From positions 1 through 36,561 of the IMG/VR virus record IMGVR_UViG_3300047175_000036: a stretch of DNA of 36,561 bases, one strand, 5' to 3'. Positions 1,668 through 16,466 of this stretch are shown here, one piece after another (position 1 is the stretch's first letter; every line of letters starts with the position of its first letter). The translations under genes and the position numbers were made by a program. The DNA comes from a virus. The notes under the pieces were generated by a model. It had not been told where the DNA came from and searched no databases. It was given only the letters and a program-made list of their open reading frames with translations.

Positions 1668-1680
1668 CGTCAAGGCGGGA

Positions 1681-1717
1681 AGGCATATACACTCCAGTCA
1701 CTAGATTATATACACCT
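1681..1717. promoter_or_regulatory. 37-bp dyad element 1 (core CAGTCACT)
   Basis: Centred on C1699. The two 18-base halves match at 13 of 18 positions. The outer half begins AGGCATATA and the core is CCAGTCACTAG. It lies in the 115-base gap after the GHKL-like gene and upstream of the GTG at 1783. A wider arm pair (GGCGGGAAGG at 1674-1683 and CCTTCCTGCC at 1714-1723) could form a hairpin. A 26-base stretch starting at 1680 is identical to one starting at 7678 in element 2. Confidence 0.8.
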
Positions 1718-1782
1718 TCCTGCCCCTTGCCACCACCGCTGGACCATTGTAGTATTGGCCTTCCGCAATCGGAGTTCGTGCC

Positions 1783-2163
1783 GTGCGCTTTTTTGACCCT
1801 GATCGACCCAAACAGCCTTCGGGCGTCCCGGCCCTCCGTCTCGACGGCGCAGCGCTGCCAACCATCAGCGTTCTGCCAGTGGCCGAAGGCCAAGTTCGTC
1901 TGAGCGTCTGGCTACGCGAACTTGACTCGGGCCATCCCAACAGCTTTAGCGGCAAGCACATAATTTTACCCACGAACCAGCTTCGTGACTTCTTCGACTG
2001 CTACACCATGGACCCCGAGGAAACGCTGGCGGCATACTTCGGCTGGGAAGACCGCAAGCCTTGGCAAGACCGCAAGCCTACGGTCAAACCTTCGCCAAGG
2101 CCGGCCCCAGCACTGTCGGCCGAATTGACTGCTGCCGCCCAAGCCTTTGCCGATTTATTTTAA
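1783..2163 (+). CDS. Hypothetical protein, 126 aa
   Basis: GTG start at 1783 with GGAG about 10 bases upstream. It is the first gene after dyad element 1 and so could head a transcription unit. The N-terminal ~90 residues look like a compact alpha/beta domain (SVWLRELDSGHPNSFSGKHI). A Pro/Lys linker with a repeated DRKP motif follows, then a short helix ending in AFADLF. The small protein at 4110 also ends in a hydrophobic tip (ALGDMF) and the one at 11641 ends in GNVF. Such tails can be docking peptides, as on SSBs, but here that is speculation. No family recognised. Confidence 0.6.
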   Translation: MRFFDPDRPKQPSGVPALRLDGAALPTISVLPVAEGQVRLSVWLRELDSGHPNSFSGKHIILPTNQLRDFFDCYTMDPEETLAAYFGWEDRKPWQDRKPTVKPSPRPAPALSAELTAAAQAFADLF

Positions 2164-2196
2164 CCCCCACCCATCCAACCGCAGGAACCCACCACC

Positions 2197-2583
2197 ATGT
2201 CACACTATACGCTTCCCATCGTCGGCGGATTTTATCGTCCGCCCGCCTTGGCCATTGTCAACGCCCTGCCCGTTGGCACCCCGCTGTTCCTCAGCGCCGA
2301 ACCCGATAACCCGGCCGACGCCAATGCCGTGGCAGTCTGGATCGTGTCGGAATGTATCCCCGCCTCTGCCCATCCGCAGTTGGAGGAAGAATTGCCGAAG
2401 TGCGGCCTGACCCTCGACCACGTCTTGCAGGAGGAACAGTGGCATCTCGGCTACATTCCTAAGGAATTTGCCAAGCAACTGCGCGAAACCAATACCATCC
2501 CGGTCGATCGCACGGTTGCGGTCCAATTCTCCGTTTCGAACGAGGGCAAACCTCGGGTCCGGTTCGAGAACCCCGTCCTTTAG
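2197..2583 (+). CDS. HIRAN-domain protein
   Basis: The product has 128 residues. The start fits HIRAN domains: VGGFYRPPAL, then GTPLFLSAEPDNPADANAVAV at about residues 29-49, and later WHLGYIPKEFAKQL. The order of strand, PDNPxDxNAVAV and LGYIPxxxAxxL is the family hallmark. HIRAN domains bind 3' ends of single-stranded DNA in the HLTF helicase and occur as stand-alone proteins in bacteria and phages. An insert of about 20 residues (SECIPASAHPQLEEELPKCG) separates the halves. A role at damaged or replicating DNA is inferred from the family and from the nearby replication genes. Confidence 0.75.
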   Translation: MSHYTLPIVGGFYRPPALAIVNALPVGTPLFLSAEPDNPADANAVAVWIVSECIPASAHPQLEEELPKCGLTLDHVLQEEQWHLGYIPKEFAKQLRETNTIPVDRTVAVQFSVSNEGKPRVRFENPVL

Positions 2584-2589
2584 CCTAAC

Positions 2590-2613
2590 CTATCCGCAGG
2601 ACTATCCGCAGGA
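2590..2613 (+). repeat. Direct repeat of TATCCGCAGG in leader
   Basis: The 10-mer TATCCGCAGG occurs at 2591-2600 and again at 2603-2612, with CATCCGCAGG at 2855-2864 before the gene at 2874. Related ACTATCCGNAGNG units form a triplet at 7605-7643. At 2612 and 2864 the end of the unit supplies the Shine-Dalgarno AGGAG of the next gene, so it may be a duplicated ribosome-binding cassette. Confidence 0.55.
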
Positions 2614-2622
2614 GTTCGTCCC

Positions 2623-2871
2623 TTGTCTCACGTCTGGCCAATGGCTACTATTCGCGAACTCATCGCGCTCGCCGAACGCACGGGTTTCGCCAAAGCTGCC
2701 CTTGGCTCGGCAGAAGAAGCTCGGCTCTTCCGCTTTGCAATATACAGTTTCCGCCGGGCCAACGAGGTCGGCCTAGAACTGTCCATCACGCTTGACGACA
2801 ACGAGGTCGTGCTGCGCAAGCGCCAGTGTCCGTCAATCGAAATCCTACCCACACCATCCGCAGGAGAATAA
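2623..2871 (+). CDS. Hypothetical protein, 82 aa
   Basis: A TTG at 2623 sits 8 bases after GGAG; an ATG at 2641 is possible but badly spaced. The product is a small mixed alpha/beta protein: a helix (MATIRELIALAERTGFAKAA), a second amphipathic helix, then strands (ELSITLDDNEVVLRKRQ). No family recognised. It is followed within a few bases by the next gene, again using the ATCCGCAGGAG leader. Confidence 0.5.
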   Translation: MSHVWPMATIRELIALAERTGFAKAALGSAEEARLFRFAIYSFRRANEVGLELSITLDDNEVVLRKRQCPSIEILPTPSAGE

Positions 2872-2873
2872 CG

Positions 2874-3314
2874 GTGCCAACGGTGTTTATCGACAATCGC
2901 CCCATGGACCTGCCGATCCGTTGGCGCGCAGGCGATATAATTGAGCCAGAGTTTACCGAAGTCCTCCATCGCATCTGGCTCAAGCGTATCGCCGCCCGGC
3001 TCCGCTACCTCAAGGAAAAAGGCGAGGACGACGATACCATCCAAGCCAAAGCCCTAGAGTTTGCGGCCCAGCCTCTCGGTCCATACTCCACGGCCCAAGA
3101 TGACGATGACGACGATCCAGTCCTGGTCGAAGCGCTCGACATCGCCCGGGCCATGATCGTGAGCCGCATGGAAGCCGAAGGCTTGCCGCAGCCCAAGGGC
3201 CTGGACATGCACGCCCGCGCCCTTGTCGATGCCATGCCCCAACTCGTCGAACGCGCTCGTGCCCGCGTCGAAGCCCGCTATCGGGCGGCCAACCTCGCCA
3301 TAGGAGCATCCTAG
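2874..3314 (+). CDS. Hypothetical acidic protein, 146 aa
   Basis: The GTG at 2874 follows CAGGAG by a normal distance; an in-frame start at 2826 lies inside the previous gene. The product is mostly helical, with a run of six aspartates near residue 77 that divides it into two helical halves. The C-terminus (RARARVEARYRAANL) is a basic helix. The TAG stop overlaps the GTG of the next gene (TAGTG), indicating coupling. No family recognised. Confidence 0.55.
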   Translation: MPTVFIDNRPMDLPIRWRAGDIIEPEFTEVLHRIWLKRIAARLRYLKEKGEDDDTIQAKALEFAAQPLGPYSTAQDDDDDDPVLVEALDIARAMIVSRMEAEGLPQPKGLDMHARALVDAMPQLVERARARVEARYRAANLAIGAS

Positions 3315-3568
3315 TGTTTACGCCAACAACGGAACAATGCCTGACCATTTTACAAATGGCAGCGGCTCGGCCCACCGGCATCGTTGTCGCAACCAACAAT
3401 CCGACGAAGATGCGCCAGACCCTTTATCGTTTCCGCAAGGAATGGGGAGACCCGGAATTTGCCAACCTCCAAGTCCGGGCCTCGCCAGACGACACGGAAA
3501 ACGAAGTTTGGATACTTCGGTCCAACGTTTCTGCTGATCCAACCGTCAACTTCTCGGACCTAATGTGA
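3314..3568 (+). CDS. Hypothetical protein, 84 aa
   Basis: The GTG start shares a base with the upstream stop and the TGA shares a base with the next ATG (TGATG), so it lies in a coupled string. The sequence suggests a small alpha/beta protein: helix TTEQCLTILQMAA, strand TGIVVATNN, helix TKMRQTLYRFRKEWG, strands LQVRASP and EVWILRSN. It has no recognisable catalytic motif. Function unknown. Confidence 0.55.
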   Translation: MFTPTTEQCLTILQMAAARPTGIVVATNNPTKMRQTLYRFRKEWGDPEFANLQVRASPDDTENEVWILRSNVSADPTVNFSDLM

Positions 3569-3825
3569 TGCCCAAGATCACGGACGAGCCACTCGTCGCC
3601 ATCCAGCTTCGGATATACAAAACCGATCTGGAGAAACTGCGGCGCCAGTATGGTTCCGAGTTCGGCGTCAACAAAACCATCCGGTCCATCATTCGCACTT
3701 TCATCAAACAGGTCGAAGCGAAAGCGAACGAGGAAATCGACCGGAAGGAAACGGCATTGCCACCGCTGAGTGAAGACTTCATGCGGGTGCTGAAGGCCGA
3801 ACCTATCGCGGACAACATCCAATGA
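3568..3825 (+). CDS. Likely ribbon-helix-helix DNA-binding protein
   Basis: The ATG at 3568 overlaps the previous TGA; a GTG one codon earlier is also in frame. The 85-residue product has a beta strand (VAIQLRIYK, residues 11-19), then helix TDLEKLRRQYG, then a turn and longer helix (GVNKTIRSIIRTFIKQVEAK). Strand-helix-helix with basic strand residues is typical of Arc/MetJ-like ribbon-helix-helix dimers, and similar small proteins are common in phages. If correct, it is the best small transcription-factor candidate in the window and a possible binder of the dyad elements. The C-terminal 30 residues are acidic and probably flexible. Confidence 0.5.
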   Translation: MPKITDEPLVAIQLRIYKTDLEKLRRQYGSEFGVNKTIRSIIRTFIKQVEAKANEEIDRKETALPPLSEDFMRVLKAEPIADNIQ

Positions 3826-4049
3826 CCTATATTACCCATGCCAGGACGGCGGAAGAGCTTCGGCTCGAAATCCTAAGCGACCTTAATCGCCGGATTGACG
3901 CCCTGGCGAAGCAGCGTGAAGCCTTTGGTCGTGGCGCCGCCGGCAAGGCCCGCTTCGACGGCCGAATTAACGAGCTTGAGGACATGCTTCGGTTCTATTC
4001 TGATCTTCAAATCGTTCCGCCATCAAAATCACGAAGCCGTGAAGTCTAG
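3822..4049 (+). CDS. Hypothetical coiled-coil protein, 75 aa
   Basis: Overlaps the previous stop (ATGA). The protein is nearly all helix: TAEELRLEILSDLNRRIDAL, then FDGRINELEDMLRFYSDL, both with heptad-like hydrophobic spacing. It ends in a basic tail (KSRSREV). It may dimerise, but no family or catalytic residue is evident. Confidence 0.5.
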   Translation: MTYITHARTAEELRLEILSDLNRRIDALAKQREAFGRGAAGKARFDGRINELEDMLRFYSDLQIVPPSKSRSREV

Positions 4050-4109
4050 CCGCTCGCAAACCCGTTACCGCCACACACCCACACACCATAGTATTTCGGG
4101 AAAACCTCT

Positions 4110-4430
4110 ATGTCCGACACCGAACCCAATCCTCTCGCCCCACAAGACGGCATAAGCCCCCTGGCGGAAGCCGATACCGACTCGGTCAATCTCCTGATTT
4201 CCGAGCGGATCAACAAGATTATGAACACCCCGCCGCTCGACCTATCGGACGAAGACTTGGCCATCACCGTGGCCTATTACCGGAAGGAACGCGCCAGGTT
4301 TATAATCGAAAGCCAGAACAAAACCACTCGGCCCAAGGCACCGCCGGGCCAAGGCAAGCCGAAGGGACCGCCGCCAACTTCTGTTGCCGACGCAATCAAG
4401 GCCGCACAAGCCCTGGGAGATATGTTCTGA
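4110..4430 (+). CDS. Hypothetical protein, 106 aa
   Basis: Preceded by a 60-base gap with only a weak purine-rich RBS (GGGAAAA). The N-terminal region is acidic and disordered. A helical segment (LLISERINKIM) precedes PPLDLSDEDLAITVAYYRKERARFI, and a Pro/Lys/Gly-rich linker (PKAPPGQGKPKGPP) precedes a terminal helix VADAIKAAQALGDMF. The layout, a helix pair plus flexible linker and short hydrophobic tail, resembles adaptor proteins, but no family was recognised. Its TGA overlaps the next ATG. Confidence 0.5.
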   Translation: MSDTEPNPLAPQDGISPLAEADTDSVNLLISERINKIMNTPPLDLSDEDLAITVAYYRKERARFIIESQNKTTRPKAPPGQGKPKGPPPTSVADAIKAAQALGDMF

Positions 4431-4723
4431 TGGCTGATGAAACCCTTGTGCCAAAGCACGAAGAACCCAAGGTCGATTTCAAACCCGATGCCGAGGCTCG
4501 CCGGCCCCTGCGCCAAGTGGCCATCCTAGCGCCCGGCGTCATGGCCTATGTCAACTACACGAATTGGCAGGGCCGCAAAGCCATTCGGCACATTCTGTTC
4601 GACGGCGCCCCGTTCTGGGGCCTGACCGACTGGCACCCCGTGCCGTGCTGGCTGATCTCTGGCACGGACCTAGAAAAAGGCGAACACCGCCTTTGGTCCA
4701 TTGCCCACATGAGTCCCGTGTGA
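4430..4723 (+). CDS. Hypothetical protein, 97 aa
   Basis: Coupled start (TGATG) and coupled end (TGATGA). Acidic/basic N-terminal 30 residues precede a beta-rich domain with several tryptophans (YTNWQGRKAIRHI, GAPFWGLTDWHPVPCWL, HRLWSI). Short phage proteins with NWxG(R)xxxR and TxWHPxPQWL patterns are common near replication genes. Function unknown. Confidence 0.55.
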   Translation: MADETLVPKHEEPKVDFKPDAEARRPLRQVAILAPGVMAYVNYTNWQGRKAIRHILFDGAPFWGLTDWHPVPCWLISGTDLEKGEHRLWSIAHMSPV

Positions 4724-5070
4724 TGACAAATGCGCAATATGACGACTTCATCATAGCCGCCACGTACAAGTTCTACCTACGGGAAGTGGCGATAGTTCGC
4801 CGTATGCTCCAACAGTGGGACCCAACTTGGGGCGAACCCGAGTTGATCCGCCAAGACCGCTACGTTCCGCCGAAGCAGCTCGACAACGGCATGATCGAAA
4901 TGACCAGCAACCTTGTGGGTCTAGCCAGGGCAACACCCGAAGGCGACAAGCCTGTCATTCTCGTCCAGGCCGCCGCACAGCTTGATGCCGAAGGCAACAT
5001 CTTGCCCGATGTTGAGGACAAGGGTATGCTCGCCCAATACGAAGGTGCACTCAAAGGCAAAAGGCAATGA
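4723..5070 (+). CDS. Hypothetical protein, 115 aa
   Basis: Start chosen at the ATG overlapping the previous stop; a longer version from 4564 would overlap the upstream gene entirely. It has an N-terminal helical segment (YDDFIIAATYKFYLREVAIVRRML) and then a less regular half with PEGDKPVILVQAAAQL. It ends ATGA into the nuclease gene, so it probably belongs to the same transcript. No family recognised. Confidence 0.5.
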   Translation: MTNAQYDDFIIAATYKFYLREVAIVRRMLQQWDPTWGEPELIRQDRYVPPKQLDNGMIEMTSNLVGLARATPEGDKPVILVQAAAQLDAEGNILPDVEDKGMLAQYEGALKGKRQ

Positions 5071-6032
5071 CCATTACATCAGTGGCCGAAGAGGCCCCAC
5101 ATCGTCTGAGCTTTTCAACCATCGAGCCCCGGCTCCAGCTTGCGTGGGACTCGACCTCGCTTGGTGCCCTTAAGCGCTGCCCTCGGTATTACCAATATAA
5201 TATCCTTATGGGCTATACCGGCTCGGGTGAAAGCCCACACTTACGCTTTGGCACGGAATACAACAATGCCCTTGTCACCTACCATCAACTCAAAGCCAGT
5301 GGTCAAGATCACGAAACGGCAACACTCGGCGCTGTTCGTTACCTGCTTCACAACACCTGGCAATACGATCTTGGTCGTCCGTGGACCAACGACGAGCCGA
5401 CAAAGAACCGAGAAACACTCTTGCGCAGCGTTATTTGGTATCTTGACAAGTTCTCGGAAGACAACCTCGAAACCCATGTCAACTCAGACGGCAAGCCGGC
5501 GGTGGAGCTTTCATTCCGCATCAATCTCGGCATAAGCAGCCACCTAACCGACGAAAACTATTTGCTCTGCGGCTACCTCGACCGCAAGGTGAATTTCGCC
5601 AGCAGCGCCTGGATCACGGATTTCAAAACCACAAAGTCGGCCCTGGACGAGAAATACTTCGCCCAATACTCGCCCAACAACCAAGTCTCGCAATATGCTT
5701 TCGCCGGCCGCATAATATCGCCCGAACCTATTGCCGGCATCATCATCGACGCGGCGCAAGTTGGCGTGACGTTTACCCGTTTCCAAAGGTCGCAAATCCC
5801 ACGGACCGAGCCCCAACTCGAAGAGTGGGCCAAAGACGCCATGATCTACATCCGCCAGAACGAAACCTATGTCGAGGCGGACTATTGGCCGATGAACGAC
5901 ACATCCTGCCAACAATACGGCGGCTGTCCATACCGTGTCGTGTGCGCCTGTTCGCCAAGTATAAGGCAAAAGCAACTCGACGGCCTGTTCCACAAGCGGA
6001 CCTGGGACCCACTCCGTATCCGTGAGATTTAA
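5067..6032 (+). CDS. PD-(D/E)XK nuclease, Cas4/RecB-like, Fe-S type
   Basis: The product has 321 residues. The catalytic core is GYLDRK with Asp172, then TDFKTTK with Asp185 and Lys187: the D...DxK signature of the RecB/Cas4/AddB nuclease family. Cys38 (LKRCPRYY) and C-terminal Cys281, Cys287 and Cys293 (CQQYGGCPYRVVC) match the one-plus-three cysteine layout that holds a 4Fe-4S cluster in Cas4 and AddB nucleases, though spacing is CX5CX5C rather than the common CX2CX5C. These enzymes resect DNA ends. Its position directly before a Sak4-like ATPase and a likely ssDNA-binding protein supports a recombination role. No cas1, cas2 or CRISPR array is present, so this is not a CRISPR locus. Confidence 0.85.
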   Translation: MTITSVAEEAPHRLSFSTIEPRLQLAWDSTSLGALKRCPRYYQYNILMGYTGSGESPHLRFGTEYNNALVTYHQLKASGQDHETATLGAVRYLLHNTWQYDLGRPWTNDEPTKNRETLLRSVIWYLDKFSEDNLETHVNSDGKPAVELSFRINLGISSHLTDENYLLCGYLDRKVNFASSAWITDFKTTKSALDEKYFAQYSPNNQVSQYAFAGRIISPEPIAGIIIDAAQVGVTFTRFQRSQIPRTEPQLEEWAKDAMIYIRQNETYVEADYWPMNDTSCQQYGGCPYRVVCACSPSIRQKQLDGLFHKRTWDPLRIREI

Positions 6033-6073
6033 CCTCGCATTAAAACCCACCCACCCAACCGAAAGCTAAACTC

Positions 6074-7117
6074 ATGGGCTCAATTCTCGACGACGTTTCC
6101 GGCCCCGCCAAGGTCTTACTCATCGGCAAAACTGGCAGCGGCAAAACCGGCTCCCTAGCTTCGCTCGTGGCTGCGGGCTGGAACCTGCGCATCATCGACA
6201 CTGACAAGGGCATAAGGCCCCTGCGGAGCCTGCTGACGGACCCACGCTATCCGTATGCCCGCTATATCGCCCAACAAGGCATCGACCTCAACCATGCCGT
6301 GCGCTACGTCTCCATCGACACGGCAATGAAGCTCCGCACCATCACGATCAAACTTCCAGGCGACGGCAACAGGACGAAGAGCGAAACCCTCCTTGCGCCA
6401 ACCGATGCCAAAGCCTGGCCCGCCGTTGTGACCATGCTCGACGGCTGGAAGGAAGGCGGAATTGACCTCGGTTCGATCTACACCTGGGGTTCCAAGGACG
6501 TTCTGGTGCTGGACAGCTTCTCGACCTTGGCCAAATGCGCTTACTATTTCAGCCAGAGCATGAACAACCGGCTCGGCGCACGCGACAGCGGCTACGATTA
6601 CCAGCGCGATATCGGCGAAGCCCAGAGCCAGCTCACCCGTTTGCTTGAAATGCTGACCGCAGGCATTGTGCCGTGCAACATCATCGTAATCTCGCACATA
6701 ACCTGGGTCGAGGAAAACGCAGGCGTGGCGAGACGGCCCAACGTCGAAGGTGCTGGCGAACTCGCCGCCATGGCATCTGACGGCTATCCGTCAGCGATTG
6801 GCCGCGCCCTCTCGCCCCAAATGGGCAAATACTTCAACGACAGCTTCACGGTCAAGGCCGACGGGACCGGCGAAAGCGTTCGCCGCGTCATCACCACCGT
6901 CCCCACCGGCGGCGTGATTGCAAAGAACAGCGTTTTCCTCAACCGTGAATACAACGTGGCCAGTGGTTTGGCCGAAATCTTCTCGGCCATCACATCCACG
7001 CCCCTGCCGCCAGCGTTTATGGAAACCATCGCCCCTGCGGCTCGTCGTGCGGCGCCTACCGCGCCCGGCGTGGCCAAACCTTCGGACCAGCGTTCACCGG
7101 CCGCTGCATCCGCCTAG
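6074..7117 (+). CDS. Sak4-like RecA-family ATPase
   Basis: The product has 347 residues. Walker A is GKTGSGKT at residues 18-25, and Walker B is the hydrophobic strand VLVLDSF with Asp147. The compact RecA core, the D-T-D-K after the first strand and a disordered Pro/Ala-rich C-terminus (from about residue 318) fit the Sak4 group. This group comprises phage single-strand annealing or recombination ATPases, often encoded beside an SSB. Here a Cas4-like nuclease precedes it and a small OB-like protein follows, which is that neighbourhood. It may instead be annotated simply as an AAA or NTP-binding protein. Confidence 0.8.
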   Translation: MGSILDDVSGPAKVLLIGKTGSGKTGSLASLVAAGWNLRIIDTDKGIRPLRSLLTDPRYPYARYIAQQGIDLNHAVRYVSIDTAMKLRTITIKLPGDGNRTKSETLLAPTDAKAWPAVVTMLDGWKEGGIDLGSIYTWGSKDVLVLDSFSTLAKCAYYFSQSMNNRLGARDSGYDYQRDIGEAQSQLTRLLEMLTAGIVPCNIIVISHITWVEENAGVARRPNVEGAGELAAMASDGYPSAIGRALSPQMGKYFNDSFTVKADGTGESVRRVITTVPTGGVIAKNSVFLNREYNVASGLAEIFSAITSTPLPPAFMETIAPAARRAAPTAPGVAKPSDQRSPAAASA

Positions 7118-7168
7118 CCTACCTAGTCGGTCACTTACCACACACTACAACTGAAAGCACAAAGCATC

Positions 7169-7603
7169 ATGAGCGCCTCAACATTCCGTTCACTTCTCCA
7201 ACAGACCTCGGAAACCGTCGAACGTCCCCGCGCCCTGGCCGGAGGCCACTACATCGGCGACATCAAAAGCACTGAGTTTGGCACCAGTCGGCAAAAACAA
7301 ACCCCATATCTTCGCGTGCTGATTACACCCACCGAGGAAACCGACGACGTTCCTGTCGGCGCCAACGACGGTATCGACCTGACACGGAAGGAGCTTCGCA
7401 AGGACTTCTACATCACCCCGGGCTCGCTCTATCGCCTGGGTGACATGCTCGACTCCGTCTTGGGCAAAGACGGTCGGCCGTTCGAAGAGCGTATCCCTGA
7501 TCTTCGCGGCCAGCGTGTCCTGTTCGCCGTGACGACGCGGGATAATGACGAAGGGACCGAGACCTACAACGACATCGGCTCCATCGTCGCCGCCAAAGAC
7601 TAG
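7169..7603 (+). CDS. Likely ssDNA-binding / OB-fold protein
   Basis: The product has 144 residues and is beta-rich: GGHYIGDIKSTEFG, TPYLRVLITPTEE, then after a helix, RGQRVLFAVTTRDND and TYNDIGSIVAAKD. The pattern of a strand pair around YLRVLITPT and a late strand GQRVLFAVTT is like short OB-fold proteins that follow Sak4 in phage genomes. No aromatic-rich acidic SSB tail is present, so the assignment rests on size, strand pattern and neighbours. Confidence 0.5.
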   Translation: MSASTFRSLLQQTSETVERPRALAGGHYIGDIKSTEFGTSRQKQTPYLRVLITPTEETDDVPVGANDGIDLTRKELRKDFYITPGSLYRLGDMLDSVLGKDGRPFEERIPDLRGQRVLFAVTTRDNDEGTETYNDIGSIVAAKD

Positions 7604-7604
7604 C

Positions 7605-7643
7605 ACTATCCGTAGGGACTATCCGCAGAGACTATCCGCAGGG
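7605..7643 (+). repeat. Three tandem 13-bp units
   Basis: Consecutive units at 7605-7617, 7618-7630 and 7631-7643 follow ACTATCCGNAGNG with one or two differences. They start just after the preceding stop and end inside the following hairpin, whose first bases are the GGG of the third unit. Confidence 0.8.
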
Positions 7644-7667
7644 AGTCGGACCAATGGTTCGGCTCCC
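7641..7667 (+). terminator. Hairpin before the ParB-methyltransferase gene
   Basis: GGGAGTCGGACC, loop AAT, GGTTCGGCTCCC. As RNA all 12 pairs can form (10 Watson-Crick and 2 G-U). There is no U-run after it (CAAGGACAAAAAGG), so it could be a weak terminator, an attenuator or an RNA processing stem rather than a classic intrinsic terminator. It lies between the tandem repeats and dyad element 2. Confidence 0.6.
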
Positions 7668-7678
7668 CAAGGACAAAA

Positions 7679-7715
7679 AGGCATATACACTCCAGTCACT
7701 AGACCCTATATGCCT
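7679..7715. promoter_or_regulatory. 37-bp dyad element 2 (core CAGTCACT)
   Basis: Centred on C7697, with 15 of 18 half-site positions matching. The outer arms AAGGCATATA (7678-7687) and TATATGCCTT (7707-7716) are perfect inverted repeats of 10 bases. It lies upstream of the start at 7750, so the ParB-methyltransferase gene may be controlled by it. Confidence 0.85.
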
Positions 7716-7749
7716 TCCGCTACCCTCTACCCACAGGAAACGGACAACC

Positions 7750-9276
7750 ATGCACCAGGACACTCTTGTTGATCCGAAGTCGATCATAGTCCGCCGCGAT
7801 AGCCGGCAGCGCCAAGTCAACATAAGCGATATTGAAGACCTCAAAGCGTCAATCCGAGCCACGGGCGTCATTCAACCCATCGTTGTGCGCCAAGTCCCCA
7901 CCGAAGGTCTCGTCCTTATCGCCGGCGAACGGAGGCTTACGGCTGCGATGGAGGTCGGCCTAGCATCCGTTCCCGTTCGCGTGATGTATAACATATCGGA
8001 CGAAGAGGCCGAGGTTATCGAACTCGAAGAAAATATCAAGCGCAAGGAACTCCATTGGCGAGACCATGTGCGCAGCGTCGGCCGCATACACGCTCTCTAC
8101 AAGGCCAAACACGAGGGGTGGACCATCGGCCAAACATGCAGCGCCATTGCTCTGTCGCAGGCGCAGTTTCACAAAATCCTTCGGGTATTCGAGGCAATCG
8201 ACTCCCCTCGCATAGCGCACGTCGAAGGCATCGAACAGGCATATAATACACTTTCGCGGTTCGCCGAGCGTAAGGCCGAAAGCATCGTCTCGGACATTAT
8301 CGCAAATGGTGCCGCCATCTTTGGCGCCGCAGGCCAGGCCACCACGGCCACGTCATCGTCTCAAGACGATTTTACCGTCCTGTCCGCCATATCCATCCTA
8401 GACGATACGCCGCCGCCCCCACCATCGGCTGAAATTTCCCCCTCGGAAACCCCTGGTGACACGGCCACGAATGTCGTGACTTTGCAAACCGGCACCACGG
8501 TATTTCCGGTGGTTGCTGCTGCGCCGCCGCCGAAGCCCCAAGACCCAGTAATCTGTGCCAATTTCCTCGAATGGGCCGCGGCATACAACGGCCCGAAGTT
8601 CACCCTAATCCACTGTGACTTTCCCTACGGAAACTATCGCGGCGACGATAGCCGAAATGCCATGGCAGGAAACGCCTCGGACGCGGAAGACTTCTACGAC
8701 AATCACGAGGAAATCTACTGGAACCTGCTGGACGGCTTAACAGCCAATCTCGATCGGATCATGAGCTATAGTGCCCATTTGATGTTTTGGTTCAATATGA
8801 ACTTTTACACCGAAACCGTTCGTCGGCTCCGCATAGCGGGCCTGTTCGTCCACGATCACCCGCTGATCTGGCACAAGACCGAAGGCGGCAGCGGCGGCCG
8901 CGGTGTCGTGCCTGGCAATGCCGTAACCTATCCTCGGAGGACGTATGACACAGCCCTGCTCGCCGTGCGCGGCAAACGTCCCCTTGCCCGTCCGGGCCAA
9001 AACTCTTACGGCGCTCCTACTGTCGGGAACAAAATTCACCCGAGCCAAAAGCCCGAGCCTATGCTTCGAGTTTTTCTTTCAATGCTCGTTGATGAAACTA
9101 CAACGGTCCTTGATCCAACTTGCGGCTCAGGCGCGGCACTACGCGCGGCCGAAGACCTCGGGGCCAAATCTGTCCTCGGCCTCGAACTAGACCCAAGCTA
9201 CGCCAACCTGGCGAACAGCAAAACCCTCCAAGCCCGCATACTGCGCCAAGCCGGCCAACTGTCTCGGAGTGAATAG
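7750..9276 (+). CDS. ParB-like domain plus HTH fused to DNA methyltransferase
   Basis: The product has 508 residues. Start is the ATG at 7750 after an AGGAAA RBS; a start at 7654 would run through the hairpin and the dyad element. The ParB domain has GERR (59-62) and ENxxR (ENIKR, 94-98), the two motifs that bind CTP in ParB partition proteins. Residues about 124-150 (WTIGQTCSAIALSQAQFHKI) read as the ParB helix-turn-helix. A Pro/Thr/Ser-rich linker (about 195-275) leads to a methyltransferase with DFPYG (290-294, the DPPY motif IV with Phe in place of the first Pro) and later DPTCGSG (455-461, the SAM-binding motif I). Motif IV before I makes it beta-class, N6-adenine or N4-cytosine. ParB-methyltransferase fusions are known in phages and usually act as orphan modification enzymes. 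No restriction partner is seen nearby. Confidence 0.88.
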   Translation: MHQDTLVDPKSIIVRRDSRQRQVNISDIEDLKASIRATGVIQPIVVRQVPTEGLVLIAGERRLTAAMEVGLASVPVRVMYNISDEEAEVIELEENIKRKELHWRDHVRSVGRIHALYKAKHEGWTIGQTCSAIALSQAQFHKILRVFEAIDSPRIAHVEGIEQAYNTLSRFAERKAESIVSDIIANGAAIFGAAGQATTATSSSQDDFTVLSAISILDDTPPPPPSAEISPSETPGDTATNVVTLQTGTTVFPVVAAAPPPKPQDPVICANFLEWAAAYNGPKFTLIHCDFPYGNYRGDDSRNAMAGNASDAEDFYDNHEEIYWNLLDGLTANLDRIMSYSAHLMFWFNMNFYTETVRRLRIAGLFVHDHPLIWHKTEGGSGGRGVVPGNAVTYPRRTYDTALLAVRGKRPLARPGQNSYGAPTVGNKIHPSQKPEPMLRVFLSMLVDETTTVLDPTCGSGAALRAAEDLGAKSVLGLELDPSYANLANSKTLQARILRQAGQLSRSE

Positions 9277-9278
9277 TC

Positions 9279-9830
9279 ATGCCGCAAACCATGAATGAAG
9301 CCCTCGCCGCTGGTATGGTCCTTTGGGCTGGTGGAACGCCGAATGGTGGAGACCTCAGTTCTATCGGCATGAAGTATGGCCCCAATCCTGATCGGGCTGA
9401 TGTTGAAGCCTGCCTTGAAGAAGGGGACGTTCTCGTTTGTGTGGTAAAAGACGACAGCTTCGTCACGGCTCAAATGACTGACGGCAAGCTAGTGCCCTTG
9501 CCGGGCGCCTTGCCAAGCCCTGAGCCCGCCGTTCCGTCGAAGTATAAACCCGCCATGACCCCGAAGGAACTTGAGCGGGAAATGACATCGAAGACTTCGG
9601 CCGAAGAATACGAAGGCGTCGATTGGCGGCTGACTAGGCCAGAATTTCGCCACGAACCCATCTTTCAACTCCTGGCTCGTGATCGCTTTGCTGCCGTCGT
9701 CGCCGAGCTTTGGATTTCCATAGCCGTCCAGCACCTTGGCTACGACCATCCGAAGATCGTCTCGGCCCGCAAACGTGTGCAAGAAATCAAGCGGTGGCAG
9801 GAAATCCACGGCACCAAACATCCAGACTAG
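9279..9830 (+). CDS. Hypothetical protein, 183 aa
   Basis: Begins three bases after the methyltransferase stop, so probably co-transcribed and co-translated. The N-terminal ~75 residues look like a small beta-rich domain (MVLWAGGTPNG, GDVLVCVVKDDSFV). A Pro-rich linker follows, then a helical C-terminal half (PIFQLLARDRFAAVVAELWISIAVQHLG). It could be a partner of the methyltransferase purely by position. No family recognised. Confidence 0.6.
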   Translation: MPQTMNEALAAGMVLWAGGTPNGGDLSSIGMKYGPNPDRADVEACLEEGDVLVCVVKDDSFVTAQMTDGKLVPLPGALPSPEPAVPSKYKPAMTPKELEREMTSKTSAEEYEGVDWRLTRPEFRHEPIFQLLARDRFAAVVAELWISIAVQHLGYDHPKIVSARKRVQEIKRWQEIHGTKHPD

Positions 9831-9840
9831 GAGCCTTGCC

Positions 9841-10023
9841 GTGGTCGCCACCCAAGTCATCATGGATGCAATAGCGTTGTTAAATCGGGTGGAAAAGGTC
9901 CACCAAGACCTCGTCGTTGCCGTCGAAGACTTCTGCGCCATGCCGCTATCGCCCGGCGCACAAAAGCGCCTAATCGAAGCCCTGGCCGCCAGCAACGCCC
10001 TTTTGAAAGAATTGGAACCATAA
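9841..10023 (+). CDS. Hypothetical helical protein, 60 aa
   Basis: GTG start 7 bases after AGGAG; a longer in-frame version from 9736 would overlap the previous gene. Almost entirely helical with hydrophobic faces (VIMDAIALLNRVEKVHQDLVV, RLIEALAASNALLKELE). No membrane segment or catalytic motif is evident. Confidence 0.5.
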   Translation: MVATQVIMDAIALLNRVEKVHQDLVVAVEDFCAMPLSPGAQKRLIEALAASNALLKELEP

Positions 10024-10051
10024 CCGCGAAGACGACTCGGAGGACTAGCTC

Positions 10052-10276
10052 GTGATCACAGAGCTTCGCTCACCCATACCCATGCTGACGCCGAAAGGTC
10101 CCGGCATGTGTCTGCTTGTCATCGACTACGGGCCAGAACACGATCTAATCTGGGTCGTAGCCTTACGTGACCCGCCACATGCCGGCGAAATCTGGGCCTA
10201 TCCGAACGCCATGGTCAGGGTGACGGAAAACGTAACTCTCGGCCGCGCTAATGTCAATCCTCAACCACAGGACTAA
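10052..10276 (+). CDS. Hypothetical protein, 74 aa
   Basis: GTG start after GGAGGA. A small beta-rich protein (GMCLLVIDYGPEHDLIWVVAL) with a PxxAGEIWAYPN segment. Similar short proteins of phage replication regions read 'dyGpehdliWvv', but none has a known role. Function unknown. Confidence 0.5.
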   Translation: MITELRSPIPMLTPKGPGMCLLVIDYGPEHDLIWVVALRDPPHAGEIWAYPNAMVRVTENVTLGRANVNPQPQD

Positions 10277-10280
10277 GCTC

Positions 10281-10502
10281 ATGGACCAAACAGAGGTTAA
10301 GTGGGAAGCCCCCGAACCCGGTGTCCTCATCCTCGTCAACACAAAGGTCTTCATCATCCACTGCCCCGGTGGCCATCCGTTCCACGTCCACCGGCGAGTG
10401 GAAACGCCTCGGTGCTATGGCTCGTTCGAAACTCTCGACGAGGCCAAAGGCCGGGCCGCGGAAACCGTTGCCGCCTTGCTGGAAATGGGCCTCGACCCAT
10501 GA
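10281..10502 (+). CDS. Hypothetical protein, 73 aa
   Basis: ATG at 10281, five bases after the previous stop; an earlier in-frame ATG at 10251 lies inside the upstream gene. Contains a short strand region (GVLILVNTKVFIIHCPGGHPFHVHR) with Cys and three His residues, then a helix (LDEAKGRAAETVAALLEMG). The His/Cys cluster could bind metal, but the pattern matches no zinc motif I know. Its TGA overlaps the ATG of the polymerase N-terminal gene. Confidence 0.5.
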   Translation: MDQTEVKWEAPEPGVLILVNTKVFIIHCPGGHPFHVHRRVETPRCYGSFETLDEAKGRAAETVAALLEMGLDP

Positions 10503-11638
10503 TCGAAGCTGAACTCGACCTAAGGCCGAAGGAAATGGCTAAGGTTAAGGTCTTAATTGTCGGCGAAGCCTACGGCGCCCGTGAAGCCCTGTTCGAGCAC
10601 CCCTTCGTTGGCGCCTCGGGCCAAGAACTAGGCAAAATGCTATTCGAAGCCGGGCTCTTGCCGCAGGCGCCAGTGACCTATGCCTCGGAACTCGAAATGA
10701 TCGCGTTCTGGCGCAAGGCACAGGCGCAGCACGGTATTGCCATTGCCAATGTGTTCAACGCCCGGCCGCCGGACAACGACATAACCCTGTTCTTCGGCGG
10801 CGCTAAAGACGACGTGGCCAAACATCTGCCGGCCTATGGCCGGGGCAAATGGGTGCGAACCGAACTCGCCCACCACGTTGAAAACCTGTGGCAGACCGTT
10901 CGTGACACCGAACCCAATCTTGTCATTGCCTTCGGCAACACGGCATGTTGGGCCTTGTTGCAGGAAATCAAGATCAGCGCCCTGCGGGGCACGATTAAGC
11001 CAAGCCCCCACCTTGGCGTCAAGGTCCTGCCGACCTATCACCCGGCCGCCGTGTTGCGCCAGTGGAACCTCCGGCCCATCGTCGTCACAGACCTCGAAAA
11101 AGCCGCCACAGAGGCCCAATTCAAAGAAGTCCGTCGGATTGAGCGCTGGCTCACTATCAACCCAACACTTGACGAAATAGCCGAATGGTCCCAGCGCCCG
11201 GCAGACTATTACGCAGTCGATATTGAAAACCCGAAGGTTATGATCGGCGCCAGCCCGAGCTATTTGCATGGCCAAATCGCCATGATTGGCTTCGCCCGTT
11301 CGCCCCACGACGCCCTCGTTATTCCGTTCTTCGACGCTGATCGGCCCGGTGGCAGCTATTGGTCTACGCCGAGGGAAGAAGTCCAAGCTGTTAAATTGGC
11401 CGATGCGCTGCTCAAGCGCCCTGTGCCGAAAATCTTCCAAAACGGTATATATGACCTCACGCACTTGCTTCGCCGGGGTTATCGGCCAACCATGTGCCGC
11501 GAAGACACCATGCTCCTGCACCACGCCCTGTATCCTGAAATGCTCAAAGGTCTCGGCTTCCTTGGCAGCATATATTCCTCGGAAATTGCCTGGAAAACCA
11601 TGAGCGGAAAAGGCAATAACCTCAAGCGGGACGAATAA
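10499..11638 (+). CDS. Split DNA polymerase I, N-part: UDG-like + 3'-5' exonuclease (incomplete)
   Basis: The product has 379 residues. Start is the ATG overlapping the previous stop. Residues 20-190 resemble family 4-type uracil-DNA glycosylases: GEAYG from 22, HPFVGASG, NVFNARPP and a late HPAAVLR with His181. The iron-sulfur cysteines of classic family 4 enzymes are absent. Residues from about 235 start a family A exonuclease domain: Exo I DIE (Asp241, Glu243) and Exo II NGIYD (Asn315, Asp319). The protein stops at WKTMSGKGNNLKRDE before Exo III. The missing motif YNALD begins the gene at 13538, which carries the polymerase domain. UDG-like N-termini on phage PolA enzymes are known, for example in SPO1. 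The two products probably assemble to form one enzyme. Confidence 0.85.
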   Translation: MIEAELDLRPKEMAKVKVLIVGEAYGAREALFEHPFVGASGQELGKMLFEAGLLPQAPVTYASELEMIAFWRKAQAQHGIAIANVFNARPPDNDITLFFGGAKDDVAKHLPAYGRGKWVRTELAHHVENLWQTVRDTEPNLVIAFGNTACWALLQEIKISALRGTIKPSPHLGVKVLPTYHPAAVLRQWNLRPIVVTDLEKAATEAQFKEVRRIERWLTINPTLDEIAEWSQRPADYYAVDIENPKVMIGASPSYLHGQIAMIGFARSPHDALVIPFFDADRPGGSYWSTPREEVQAVKLADALLKRPVPKIFQNGIYDLTHLLRRGYRPTMCREDTMLLHHALYPEMLKGLGFLGSIYSSEIAWKTMSGKGNNLKRDE

Positions 11639-11640
11639 CC

Positions 11641-12015
11641 ATGAGCAACAATCCGCCAGTAATTAAAGCCTACGTCATTGCTTGCGAACCCCTTGGCGTA
11701 TATCTCGGCAACGCCATGGGTATGTCCTTTTGGACCCGGCTTGACACCTGTGGAAACCCCTATGCCGTGGCCTTTGCTACCAAAGACGCCGCTCGCGCTC
11801 ATGTCGCCTCGTGGCTGACCAACAACCATCCCGCCAGCTACCGCTATGTCGAGTGCGAAGCCGACATTATGGGCGACACACTCTTCGCCTCGATCGACCA
11901 GCTCAAAGCCGCCGGCCTCGGCCCCCAACTTTACGACATGGAGGCCCAGGCGGCGAAATACGCCGAGCTTGAGCGGCAGGCTCAAACGGAAAAACAGCAA
12001 GGGAATGTGTTCTGA
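11641..12015 (+). CDS. Hypothetical protein inside the polymerase split, 124 aa
   Basis: Starts two bases after the stop of the exonuclease half and ends in a shared base with the next ATG. Residues 8-75 are beta/alpha with aromatic patches (KAYVIACEPLGVYLGNAMGM, FWTRLDTCG). The C-terminal 40 residues are helical (YDMEAQAAKYAELERQAQTE), ending in GNVF. It has no HNH, GIY-YIG or LAGLIDADG motif, so it does not look like a homing endonuclease that caused the split. Function unknown. Confidence 0.6.
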   Translation: MSNNPPVIKAYVIACEPLGVYLGNAMGMSFWTRLDTCGNPYAVAFATKDAARAHVASWLTNNHPASYRYVECEADIMGDTLFASIDQLKAAGLGPQLYDMEAQAAKYAELERQAQTEKQQGNVF

Positions 12016-12356
12016 TGGAAACCGACGATATACCCACCCACAAATATAGCCTGTGGGTTCCCATGGCCGACTTTGCCGATGTGGCTTGCCTCGGCAAACT
12101 AATAGAGGAAGCCAACGAACTAGCAGGTATTGCTGCTCGGTGCATCATCCAGGGCGGGCTGGATAAAATCGAGCCAGTAACACACAAGCCTAACCGCAGG
12201 GCATTGGAAGACGAAATTGCCGATGTTCTCGCCCTAATTGCCCTCACCACTTCTCGCTTCGGCCTTGATCTTGAAGCTATCGAAAAACGCCGAATTGCAA
12301 AGTTCGACTACAAACTACCTTGGCTTCGGGACCTTGACGAAAGCCTTCGGCCATGA
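12015..12356 (+). CDS. MazG-like nucleotide pyrophosphohydrolase
   Basis: The product has 113 residues, all-alpha. It has the EExxE...ExxD pattern of the MazG/dUTPase-like superfamily: EEANE at residues 31-35 and EDEIADV at 65-71, which coordinate magnesium in the family. Such enzymes cleave NTPs or dNTPs to NMP and pyrophosphate and are frequent in phages. The N-terminal HKYSLWVPMADFADVACLGKL fits the first helix of the fold. It lies inside the 1.9 kb between the polymerase halves, beside a second MazG-like gene. Substrate cannot be told from sequence. Confidence 0.7.
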   Translation: METDDIPTHKYSLWVPMADFADVACLGKLIEEANELAGIAARCIIQGGLDKIEPVTHKPNRRALEDEIADVLALIALTTSRFGLDLEAIEKRRIAKFDYKLPWLRDLDESLRP

Positions 12357-12571
12357 GCGATATACCACCGCCCGCCCCGGTCCAGATGCCCGAGACCAAA
12401 GCCACTGGCCTGCCCGATTGCGGCCAAGCCACGCCATGCCAGATGTCGGAATGCCCTTGGCCCAATTTTGAAATGGGCTATGGCCTTGCCGGCGGCGGCC
12501 TGGGCGTCTATGAGTTCTGCGTCGCTTGCGGCCAGATAGTAAGCAAAACCCTCGATCAAGCCGAAGGATAG
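12353..12571 (+). CDS. Small zinc-ribbon-like protein, 72 aa
   Basis: ATGA overlap with the previous gene. Residues 23-34 contain Cys23, Cys29 and Cys34 (LPDCGQATPCQMSEC), and later CVACGQIV gives a CxxC knuckle. Several cysteines ending in a CxxCG strand suggest a zinc ribbon. The N-terminus is Pro-rich. It could bind nucleic acid or a polymerase subunit, but that is only inferred from the fold. Confidence 0.5.
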   Translation: MSDIPPPAPVQMPETKATGLPDCGQATPCQMSECPWPNFEMGYGLAGGGLGVYEFCVACGQIVSKTLDQAEG

Positions 12572-12628
12572 CGCCATAGTTTAGGTCGGCGGAAAAAGCA
12601 CAAACCCTGAACAAAAAGGAAACGGAAC

Positions 12629-13039
12629 ATGAACGTCTGCATAGCCGACGTATATGCCTTTAACCAAGCCTGCAATGTGCCGATGCGAGACACGCCCGGC
12701 CTCGTCCCTCAGGCTGAGCTTGAACTCGCCATTCGGCTCATTGACGAAGAAGTCAACAAGGAACTGCTACCAACCCTGCGGAACGCGCCGCAGGACCTCG
12801 TCACCGTGGCCGACGCCGCCATCGACTCCATCTACGTCATCACCGGCCTCCTTCTCCGCCTCGGCATACCGGGCCACCTTGTCTGGCAGATAGTCCAGCG
12901 CACTAACATGGCCAAGGTTGACCCCGACACTGGCGAAGTCGTTCGGCGTGCCGATGGCAAAATCCTCAAGCCAGAAGGCTGGCAACCGCCCGAGCCGGCA
13001 ATCAAGCTCTTACTCGAACAAAAGGGATGGAAACCATGA
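12629..13039 (+). CDS. MazG/HisE-like all-alpha NTP pyrophosphohydrolase
   Basis: The product has 136 residues, with AAGGAAAC as RBS. The order VYAFNQACNVPMRDTPG, then RLIDEEVNKEL (Glu40, Glu41, Glu45), then VADAAIDSIYVITG (Asp62, Asp66), then NMAKVDPDTGEV matches phage phosphoribosyl-ATP-pyrophosphohydrolase-like (HisE/MazG fold) proteins. These act on nucleoside triphosphates; a house-cleaning or dNTP-pool role is typical. It is more family-like than its neighbour at 12015, so the polymerase split carries two different members of the fold. Confidence 0.78.
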   Translation: MNVCIADVYAFNQACNVPMRDTPGLVPQAELELAIRLIDEEVNKELLPTLRNAPQDLVTVADAAIDSIYVITGLLLRLGIPGHLVWQIVQRTNMAKVDPDTGEVVRRADGKILKPEGWQPPEPAIKLLLEQKGWKP

Positions 13040-13281
13040 CCGCTTTGAGCGACATTCAGCATGAACTCAACGCCATAATCGCGGACATGGATAGGCTCGC
13101 AAAGCTTTATGCCGACGACAGCAAGCTACTTGTTGCTTCGGCGGAAGCTGAAAATAACCGCCCTTGGTATCGCAAATTTCGCATCACGATGGCCGAGCAT
13201 TTGCGTATTCGGGCGCAAAAGCAATATAACACCAAGTCCGAACTTGACAGCTTCATCAAAAGACTCAGGGAACTAATGTAA
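13036..13281 (+). CDS. Hypothetical helical protein, 81 aa
   Basis: The ATG at 13036 overlaps the previous TGA; an ATG three codons earlier is an alternative. Long helices are predicted (LSDIQHELNAIIADMDRLAKLYA and a C-terminal SELDSFIKRLRELM), with a basic middle (WYRKFRITMAEHLRIRAQKQ). Ends TAATG into the next gene. Function unknown. Confidence 0.5.
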   Translation: MTALSDIQHELNAIIADMDRLAKLYADDSKLLVASAEAENNRPWYRKFRITMAEHLRIRAQKQYNTKSELDSFIKRLRELM

Positions 13282-13532
13282 TGCCAGATGCTCCGATTGA
13301 GGCCGAGTTTCGGGCCAAGATGAACGAACTCGCCATCTATATCGACAAGCTGTTCAACGGCGAAAAGGTTGGCGCTGCCCGTGAAGTCGGCTTCGTCCTG
13401 CTCGTAAGCAAGTTTGGCAACAACAAACGGTGTAATTACCTGTCGAACTGTGAACGGGCCGATACCATTGCCATGATGAAAGAGACAGCGGCTAGGCTCT
13501 CGGGCCAATCACATAAACCAGGAAGGGCCTAA
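13281..13532 (+). CDS. Hypothetical protein, 83 aa
   Basis: Shares a base with the upstream stop. Helical (EFRAKMNELAIYIDKLFNG, then GAAREVGFVLLVSKFG), followed by NNKRCNYLSNCERADTIAMMKETAARL. The second half resembles a small phage protein family with 'G..fallvf.fg....ryvSNa.R..mi..lke'. That family has no known function. It is the last gene before the polymerase domain. Confidence 0.55.
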   Translation: MPDAPIEAEFRAKMNELAIYIDKLFNGEKVGAAREVGFVLLVSKFGNNKRCNYLSNCERADTIAMMKETAARLSGQSHKPGRA

Positions 13533-13537
13533 GCACT

Positions 13538-14995
13538 ATGCTCGTCGGCAGTCATCTACTCGACACAGACACGGGTTCGGAGCAAGCCTACAACGCGCTC
13601 GATTGTTGTTTGACGCATGAAATCTTTCACGAGATTAGTAAACAGCGCCCACAGGCCGAGCCGGCGTATAGCTTCGAACTCGCGCTTCAAGGTCCCGTGC
13701 TCGAAATGATGCTGCGGGGCTGGCGCGTCAACCCCTTTGCTCGCCAGGACGGCATAAACGCCACCAAAGCCCAACTCGCCCGCATGGACCATGTTATCGA
13801 CACCCTTGCTCATGCCGTGTGGGACAAGGGCCTAAACCCAAACTCGGGCCAACAGCTCAAGGAACTATTCTACGGCAGGCTCGGCATACCAGAGATCAAA
13901 GCCTGGGTCAAGGGCGAGTTGAAGTTTCCTATGGACCGGAGCATAATTGAACAGATCGAGGACTATTTTCAAGCCCGGCTGATCGCCGGCTCGGTCCTCC
14001 AGCACCGAGACCTGCAAAAGACCCTCCAGGTTCTCGAAACCGAAGTCGATCCCGATTGGCGGATGCGGACGAGTTATAACATTGGGGGCACAAAGAGTGC
14101 TCGGTTCTCAAGCTCCAAGTCCCCCACGGGCACTGGGACAAATTTACAAAATATCACCGAAAGTCTTCGCCACATCCTAATTCCCGATCCTGGGTTTTAC
14201 CTCTGCGGCATCGACGCCTCGCAAAGCGACAGCCGTATGGTCGGCTTCATGCTCGGCCTATTATTCAACGACTGGACCTATCTTGACGCCTGTGAGTCCG
14301 GCGATTTGCATACCGTCGTGGCCCGAATGACGTGGCCGGAACTGCCCTGGAACGGCGATTTAAAAAAGGACAAAGCTATTGCCGAACAGCCCTTCTACCG
14401 CCACTTCACCTACAGGGATAGTTGTAAAAAGCTCGGCCATGGAACGAACTTCATGGGCAAGGCTCCGACACTGAGCAAGCTCATCCACATCCCGATGGGA
14501 CTCGTGGAGGCGTTTCAGGACAAGTATTTCGAAGGCTTCCCCGCCCTACCAATGTGGCACGCCTGGACCGCTGCCGAGCTTCAGCGCAAGCGCCAACTCG
14601 TCAGTATTCATGGCCGCAAGCGTGACTTTTTCGACCGGACTAATGTGGACGAAACGCTGCGCAAAGGCTTGGCTTTCCTTGCGGCTGCGGCAACGGCCGA
14701 TAATCTCAACCTTGGGATGTGGCGGGTCTGGCGTTACGAACCTGACGTCCAGCTTCTCGGCCAAGTCCACGACGCCATCTACTTCCAAGTGCCACTTGAC
14801 ATTAAACCTCGGGACATAATCCCCCGGATACAGAGCCGGCTGCGCGTCGAGCTTCGCGCTCCCAATGGGCGTGTCTTTGCCGTGCCGACCGAGGCCAAGC
14901 ACGGCATGAATTGGGGCAATTATATTCCTGCGGACGAGGAGAAAGGCACACCAGAACGGAACGTAAATGGTTTGCGTAAATTCAAACCGGAATAG
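13538..14995 (+). CDS. Split DNA polymerase I, C-part: Exo III + polymerase domain
   Basis: The product has 485 residues. It opens with Exo III (YNALD, Tyr18 to Asp22), the piece missing from the gene at 10499. The polymerase domain has motif A GIDASQSDSR (Asp226), motif B RDSCKKLGHGTNF (Arg293, Lys297) and motif C QVHDA (Asp412). Relative to E. coli Pol I, the Glu of motif A is Asp, the Phe762 position is His301, the Tyr766 position is Phe305, and the Glu after the motif C Asp is Ala. The two metal-binding aspartates are kept, so it should be active. No 5' nuclease domain is present, as is usual in phage enzymes. A GGAAGGGCC RBS precedes it. The split leaves each half with incomplete exonuclease sites. 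Confidence 0.88.
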   Translation: MLVGSHLLDTDTGSEQAYNALDCCLTHEIFHEISKQRPQAEPAYSFELALQGPVLEMMLRGWRVNPFARQDGINATKAQLARMDHVIDTLAHAVWDKGLNPNSGQQLKELFYGRLGIPEIKAWVKGELKFPMDRSIIEQIEDYFQARLIAGSVLQHRDLQKTLQVLETEVDPDWRMRTSYNIGGTKSARFSSSKSPTGTGTNLQNITESLRHILIPDPGFYLCGIDASQSDSRMVGFMLGLLFNDWTYLDACESGDLHTVVARMTWPELPWNGDLKKDKAIAEQPFYRHFTYRDSCKKLGHGTNFMGKAPTLSKLIHIPMGLVEAFQDKYFEGFPALPMWHAWTAAELQRKRQLVSIHGRKRDFFDRTNVDETLRKGLAFLAAAATADNLNLGMWRVWRYEPDVQLLGQVHDAIYFQVPLDIKPRDIIPRIQSRLRVELRAPNGRVFAVPTEAKHGMNWGNYIPADEEKGTPERNVNGLRKFKPE

Positions 14996-15004
14996 GACCG
15001 TATT

Positions 15005-16234: not shown

Positions 16235-16236
16235 AA

Positions 16237-16273
16237 AGGCATCTACAATACAGTCACTGTATAGCATATCTCT
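16237..16273. promoter_or_regulatory. 37-bp dyad element 3 (core CAGTCACT)
   Basis: Centred on C16255 with inner arms ATACAGT and ACTGTAT perfectly paired; 13 of 18 half-site positions match. It lies two bases after the stop of the replication ATPase and about 20 bases before the start of a 43-residue membrane protein, the only gene between it and the terminator. Confidence 0.8.
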
Positions 16274-16293
16274 AACCGAAAGGAACCCTCGTC

Positions 16294-16425
16294 ATGCGGA
16301 ACGTATACAGCCACAATTTGGCCGAACATCACCGTTTCCTGCGCCGAGTCCAATTACTCTCTTGGCTCATTCGGGCCACCGCGGTCGTAACCTGCATCAT
16401 CATGTTTCTTTGGATATTTCGCTAA
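16294..16425 (+). CDS. Small membrane protein, 43 aa
   Basis: ATG after GAAAGGAACCC. N-terminal half is polar and basic (MRNVYSHNLAEHHRFLRRVQ), followed by one hydrophobic helix (LLSWLI...ATAVVTCIIMFLWIF) ending in a single Arg. The positive-inside rule suggests the N-terminus is cytoplasmic. It has its own dyad element upstream and a terminator 15 bases downstream, so it may form a separate small transcript. It could be a host-takeover, superinfection or lysis-timing protein, but sequence alone cannot tell. Confidence 0.6.
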   Translation: MRNVYSHNLAEHHRFLRRVQLLSWLIRATAVVTCIIMFLWIFR

Positions 16426-16440
16426 ACGACGGCAGCGCAG

Positions 16441-16466
16441 CTAGGAGGGCGGCTTCGCCCTCCTAG
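16441..16466. terminator. Terminator between convergent arms
   Basis: CTAGGAGGGCG (16441-16451), loop GCTT, CGCCCTCCTAG (16456-16466): an 11-bp perfect stem. It lies between the end of the plus-strand arm (16425) and the end of the minus-strand arm (16507). No long U-run follows on either strand, but the stem strength and position make a bidirectional terminator likely. Confidence 0.85.

Follow-up and report, generated by a model that had tools for sequence, protein, structure and literature searches.

The window, by which we mean the whole stretch of DNA analysed here, is an entire IMG/VR virus record of 36,561 nucleotides and possibly a genome fragment. An open frame spans 7654-9276 on its plus strand; the ATG at 7750, behind AGGAAA, is the start used by the homologues, and the gene read from it (7750-9276) encodes a protein of 508 amino acids. 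When this ORF was compared with Pfam, PHROGs and NCBIfam, Pfam returned ParB_N (PF02195; 2e-17, 63.5 bits against a cut-off of 26.3) and N6_N4_Mtase (2.2e-12, above the cut-off), and the NCBIfam model TIGR00180 covered residues 9-145, helix-turn-helix (HTH) included, with 72 bits (cut-off 58.45). A profile of 37 relatives run against the PDB gave Noc (7ng0) as its best match (E 4.6e-22), spanning the NTPase fold and the HTH, and its methyltransferase part matched DpnA and CcrM.

An AlphaFold model of the protein (mean pLDDT 81.7), together with the structure alignments and the invariant residues, divides it into a ParB NTPase fold (residues 1-100; 7750-8049), a ParB-type HTH (residues 103-148; 8056-8193), a proline-rich, low-confidence linker (residues 199-262; 8344-8535; pLDDT below 50 over 196-256) and a DNA methyltransferase (residues 263-508; 8536-9273). 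The modelled helices lie at 103-120, 126-133 and 137-148, the last being the recognition helix. With VIA-align, the N-terminal part superposes on M. xanthus ParB 7bnr (Z 15.4, 1.7 Å, 95 residues) and the methyltransferase domain aligns at Z 18-23 overall, with 22.9 for M1.HpyAVI and 21.3 for CcrM. Its motif IV (DFPY, at 290) precedes motif I (DPTCGSG, at 455), the order of the beta class. The N-terminal NTPase fold and HTH place the protein in the ParB/RepB/Spo0J family; the ParB C-terminal dimerisation domain is absent, and the linker and methyltransferase occupy the C-terminal part. Family models, PDB profile and fold alignments thus agree with the original prediction of a ParB-type HTH followed by a beta-class methyltransferase, and it is confirmed that 7750-9276 encodes a fusion of ParB NTPase fold, ParB-type HTH and beta-class methyltransferase. 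The usual motif IV of such methyltransferases is D/N/S-PP-Y; here D290, F291 and P292 (DFPY being residues 290-293, window 8617-8628) are invariant in the 37 relatives.

The putative nucleotide-binding boxes that had been read from the sequence are indeed kept, box II (GERR) at residues 59-62 and box III (ENIKR, of the form ENxxR) at residues 94-98, and they are mostly invariant: G59, R61, R62, E94, N95 and R98 do not change among the 37 relatives, and E60 varies, giving GGRR in L024, L025, L026 and L029. Box I is RQR, unlike canonical ParB. Bacterial SAM-dependent methyltransferase fusions of the ParB fold bound ATP and, as stated in the same source, the bound nucleotide cannot be predicted from sequence in ParB-CTPase folds (PMC12704722, available text), so that CTP is no more than a candidate ligand of the fusion.

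The six dyads claimed earlier for this DNA are real. They are copies of a single 37-bp element with conserved 10-bp arms and a core of fixed length (17 bp) holding an inner palindrome; one arm resembles AGGCATATRC and the mirrored arm stands on the far side of the core. The core pattern matched nine times against 0.87 expected, a number reached in none of 100 shuffles, and the arm model, at a score cut of 14, matches once per 770,778 shuffled bases. No strand is assigned to the dyads, all of which are intergenic. Dyad 1 (1681-1717) lies 13 nt past a stop codon and 65 nt ahead of the GTG at 1783; dyad 2 (7679-7715) ends 34 nt ahead of the ATG of the fusion gene; dyad 3 (16237-16273) lies 2 nt past the stop of a DUF3987 helicase-like gene, a place reused in distant relatives; dyad 4 (22192-22228) lies between the minus-strand genes 22231-23949 and 21483-22172; dyads 5 (28584-28620) and 6 (34276-34312) are upstream of the minus-strand genes 27024-28562 and 33500-34243 (phrog_8234), respectively. 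Genes were called by a simple script and PHROGs served as a check on the called ORFs in some cases only, so that distances, evenness and counts of convergent ends depend on these calls. With the genes so called, five of the six dyads are 2-16 nt past a stop codon (dyad 2 at 75 nt) and five are 19-34 nt ahead of a start codon, dyad 1 being the exception. Palindromes are dispersed here in the manner of KorB operators, with six in the 36.6-kb window and at least 12 in the 61.7 kb of the relative G003, and in both phages they are spaced more regularly than gene boundaries drawn at random from the calls (equally even in 22 of 20,000 draws for the window and in 58 of 20,000 for G003).

Such positions invite the explanation that the dyads serve a phage regulator, either the fusion or some other protein, as its operators or promoter elements, in the way of the dispersed stoperators of mycobacteriophages, and are unrelated to the spreading of methylation. 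Every window dyad stands upstream of a called gene, as an operator would, which counts against a loading site for the fusion; many sites in the close relatives G001-G005 are placed similarly near start codons, and KorB offers an example of a ParB-family repressor with dispersed operators (PMC11790492, available text). We nevertheless consider this explanation unlikely, though it deserves serious weight. Window 1-17500 holds about as many promoter-like matches as chance predicts (9 against 7.1), no integrase was found in 12 contigs, and in distant phages dyads lie at convergent gene ends, for example G008 12198 and G022 28799. Operator function alone accounts poorly for the dyads, because they recur after the helicase gene and at times between convergent ends. 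A profile of T7-type RNA polymerase (PF00940) gave no match, its control being silent as well. Autoregulation of the fusion gene, which the original prediction had raised from the place of dyad 2, may hold for the close group, in which the gene has a dyad in front of it; in the distant phages the dyads lie kilobases away or downstream.

The scans for relatives yielded nine loci whose fusions are close (57-91% identity), and with an alignment 80 of 219 loci were kept. In the close relatives G001-G005 the arms of the dyads are kept while the core is replaced as a set, with one core type per phage: type A, CAGTCACTG, in the window and G001; type B, AGGGTSACCCT-like, in G002, G003 and L100; and type C, GTAG..CCTAC, in G004 and G005. 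Dyad places are conserved among these phages, namely before the fusion gene, after the helicase gene and before the tail genes; in G004 the first of these dyads precedes a small ORF in front of the fusion gene. Among some 500 alignment columns of the six fusions, only residues 139 (Q/H/Y by core type) and 190 (I/V/L) segregate three ways with the three core types, and residue 139 (codon 8164-8166) occupies the third position of the recognition helix. In the stretch of that helix G002 resembles G003, with which it shares its core type, more than it resembles the window (57% against 43%), whereas this is not so for its CTPase domain (55 against 60) and methyltransferase domain (77 against 78). 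Kinship may account for both core type and protein, the comparison comprising six phages in three classes.

Between lineages the methyltransferase is 68-82% identical and the HTH 43-77%, and this greater conservation of the methyltransferase suits dyads whose arms are kept and whose cores vary. The parallel is weakened by L004, L005 and L006 (fusions 60-66% identical), which have the same methyltransferase but no dyads at the places examined: no dyad was found upstream of the fusion gene in these three loci, nor after the helicase gene in L006 and L103. Phages of this kind give some room to the idea that another phage protein, as yet unrecognised, binds the dyads, the fusion being simply a conserved neighbour in the replication module. 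A further shared protein with a weak HTH match (G003 1099-1683, E 0.025) could be proposed for this part; it also occurs, however, in four phages without a fusion or accepted dyads, and the segregation of residue 139 with core type points to the fusion itself. We therefore hold a different binder to be improbable.

To distant phages we applied a de novo search for repeated palindromes, which gave dyads in L031, L069, L080, L089 and L091 and later in L114 and L154; its shuffled control returned 0 pairs in 405 loci. The search omits terminator-like hairpins, whereby the true dyads of L008/L104 were lost. In a survey covering larger pieces of 30 contigs, accepted dyad families were present in 12 of 20 contigs with a fusion (the window, G001, G002, G003, G007, G008, G009, G010, G011, G012, G022 and G023) and in one of ten without (Fisher p 0.011), and three or more copies in 10 of 20 against none of ten (p 0.006); both p values overstate the case, because the contigs share ancestry and acceptance involved some judgement by eye. 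The one case counted among the contigs without a fusion is a doubtful two-copy one, G037 (L231 9958, L232 3992), with a dyad-like 31-mer and no fusion detected. Eight of the 20 fusion contigs are without an accepted family, among them G020, whose three ambiguous copies were left out. Two-copy matches under some 79% identity, like copies within terminal repeats, were put down to chance by eye; a two-copy 30-mer of G018 (77%) and one of the named phage Strzyga (87%) were left out. G004 and G005 stand outside this survey, and 13 of its contigs were partly scanned (G009, G012, G013, G014, G016, G018, G021, G027, G028, G032, G034, G036 and G037).

The dyad sequences are lineage-specific. G007 and G008 carry TTAGRCCCAT arms around an ACTSAGT centre, and weaker variants of this motif recur in further loci; the distant dyads are mostly 35-37 bp long with an odd centre, that of G009 being even. 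When contigs with a shared dyad were retrieved by DNA pattern, 7 of 21, most of them fragments, held a whole or partial fusion. At least four sequence groups have a dyad after their helicase gene: the window family, the TTAG group, G022 and L154. The G008 dyad lies between convergent primase/helicase and tail-fibre genes, that of G022 likewise between convergent ends, and with called genes 13 of 20 sites, several sharing a contig, are so placed. Among ten shared genes the fusion alone has a ParB-type HTH; it is present in 16 of 16 fusion-bearing contigs and in none of four lacking it, a count that reflects how the contigs were picked. The DNA polymerase and a structural protein led to the named phages Kuura and Strzyga, in which no dyads were accepted; named phages gave no DNA match to window 6000-12000, and in protein matches (30 of 53 listed) they covered at most 42% of the fusion.

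Each dyad could also fold as a hairpin, and the short distances to the preceding stop codons would suit terminators or processing hairpins acting at the RNA level. The halves of the type A dyads covary more than in shuffled sets, of which 6 in 500 score as high, while those of type B vary independently, covariation being reached in 145 and pair types in 481 of 500 shuffles; independent halves fit a DNA site bound by a dimer and not an RNA hairpin. The centre base is independent of the direction of transcription, within a phage the sequence itself is conserved beyond mere pairing, and no terminator-like match falls at dyads 1-3. We consider a role in RNA very improbable.

The phage-plasmid N15 has a ParB-like protein with dispersed parS-like sites, and on this likeness the original prediction had thought of segregation. 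A ParB-like protein with dispersed parS-like sites is also what the window offers, and the dyads could then be centromere-like sites of a phage-plasmid. This reading is not supported and is scarcely credible to us: partition is unlikely since neither ParA nor a tyrosine integrase was found in 12 contigs, although the contigs are perhaps incomplete. The ParA ATPase profile (PF13614) matched in 0 of these 12 contigs, possibly fragments, and in 14 of 14 control genomes. A single scan of genomes of bacteria and archaea yielded one weak, partial match to the fusion, at 37%.

Several further features of these phages were noted. A conserved 14-mer, GACCTGGGCATGTC, precedes the fusion gene in L004 (1876), L005 (1198) and L006 (4114), where the dyad at this place is missing, and also in L007 (2719 and 2846), alongside a dyad. 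Behind dyad 3, window 16294-16425 holds a 43-aa ORF with a hydrophobic tail, for which a Pfam search gave no match; G001 has a similar ORF. A uracil-DNA glycosylase-like domain (window 10301-11638; L014 2546-3610) lies next to the polymerase A gene, and in G003 the part after this domain resembles a phage DNA polymerase family, with a further, weak match to a 3'-5' exonuclease. A 185-nt repeat (22667-22851 and 26556-26740, 72% identical) lies inside two minus-strand genes. GANTC is strongly depleted in the window (32 observed, 104.5 expected) and likewise in G001-G005, perhaps reflecting a CcrM-bearing host. Avoidance of CATATG was dropped as a candidate, its rank among 64 palindromes not tracking dyad type.

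ParB-methyltransferase fusions are already known; in the open-licence PMC literature we found no paper on dispersed dyads accompanying such a fusion. Phage-encoded fusions with the same two domains, ParB-CTPase fold and N6_N4 methyltransferase, have been described, with a function merely suggested (anti-defence or phage-host interaction) and, in the text available, no mention of DNA sites (PMC12704722). BCE_0392 of a B. cereus prophage likewise joins a ParB domain to an adenine methylase; it differs in being prophage-borne and in its reported nicking activity and unknown specificity, and the available parts of these reports do not mention dyads (PMC3459991, PMC5512222). KorB of plasmid RK2 shares the ParB fold and HTH (8qa8, E 9.7e-6 with the fusion profile) and acts at long range from a palindromic operator as a CTP sliding clamp; it has no methyltransferase, is plasmid-borne with a KorA partner, and outer arms go unmentioned in the text available (PMC11790492). 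Noc and Spo0J ParB, the closest PDB match with the HTH included, differ in their C-terminal domain, which the methyltransferase replaces in the fusion, and in ParA, which was not found here. CcrM, M1.HpyAVI and M.BceJIV fold like the methyltransferase of the fusion (Z 21-23) but are not fused to ParB, and the motif IV of the fusion is DFPY. Mycobacteriophage stoperators are dispersed too, but they are asymmetric, in one orientation to transcription and bound by the lysogeny repressor, unlike the dyads here, which are symmetric and of mixed centre orientation.

Taking these comparisons into consideration, we give about an even chance to the dyads being DNA loading sites, parS- or KorB-operator-like, for the phage's own ParB-methyltransferase. 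The original prediction that they load the fusion thereby gains comparative support from the phage-specific cores, residue 139 and the dyads of distant phages; binding itself we infer from these sequence comparisons. The HTHs of two fusion subunits would recognise the inner core; contacts to the outer arms would come from elsewhere in the protein, possibly from the methyltransferase domains, which may also stand in for the second dimer contact that the fusion lacks. On binding a nucleotide through its ParB fold, the dimer would shut to form a clamp, move off the dyad and slide, bringing methyltransferase activity along the phage DNA in cis, and sites every 6-8 kb would give coverage of that DNA. 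Binding, nucleotide use, sliding and methylation are attributed to the fusion by analogy with ParB and KorB (PMC11790492, PMC12704722, available text); KorB already shows that a ParB-family clamp can slide and have dispersed operators (PMC11790492). More tentatively, and with odds we place clearly below even, the fusion may be a clamp-loaded methyltransferase that loads at fast-evolving, phage-specific dyads and modifies viral and not host DNA in cis, the core serving as an address code.

The survey suggests that a large group of little-known phages combines a ParB-type clamp and a methylase in one protein, and that many of them carry matching dispersed palindromes. Phage ParB-methyltransferase fusions have been without a known role, and loading at the dyads, if true, would give them a testable one: the phage DNA might mark itself against restriction, or methylation might be tied to replication. 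The variable core and the pair formed with it by the recognition-helix residue would provide a natural specificity series for the ParB HTH.
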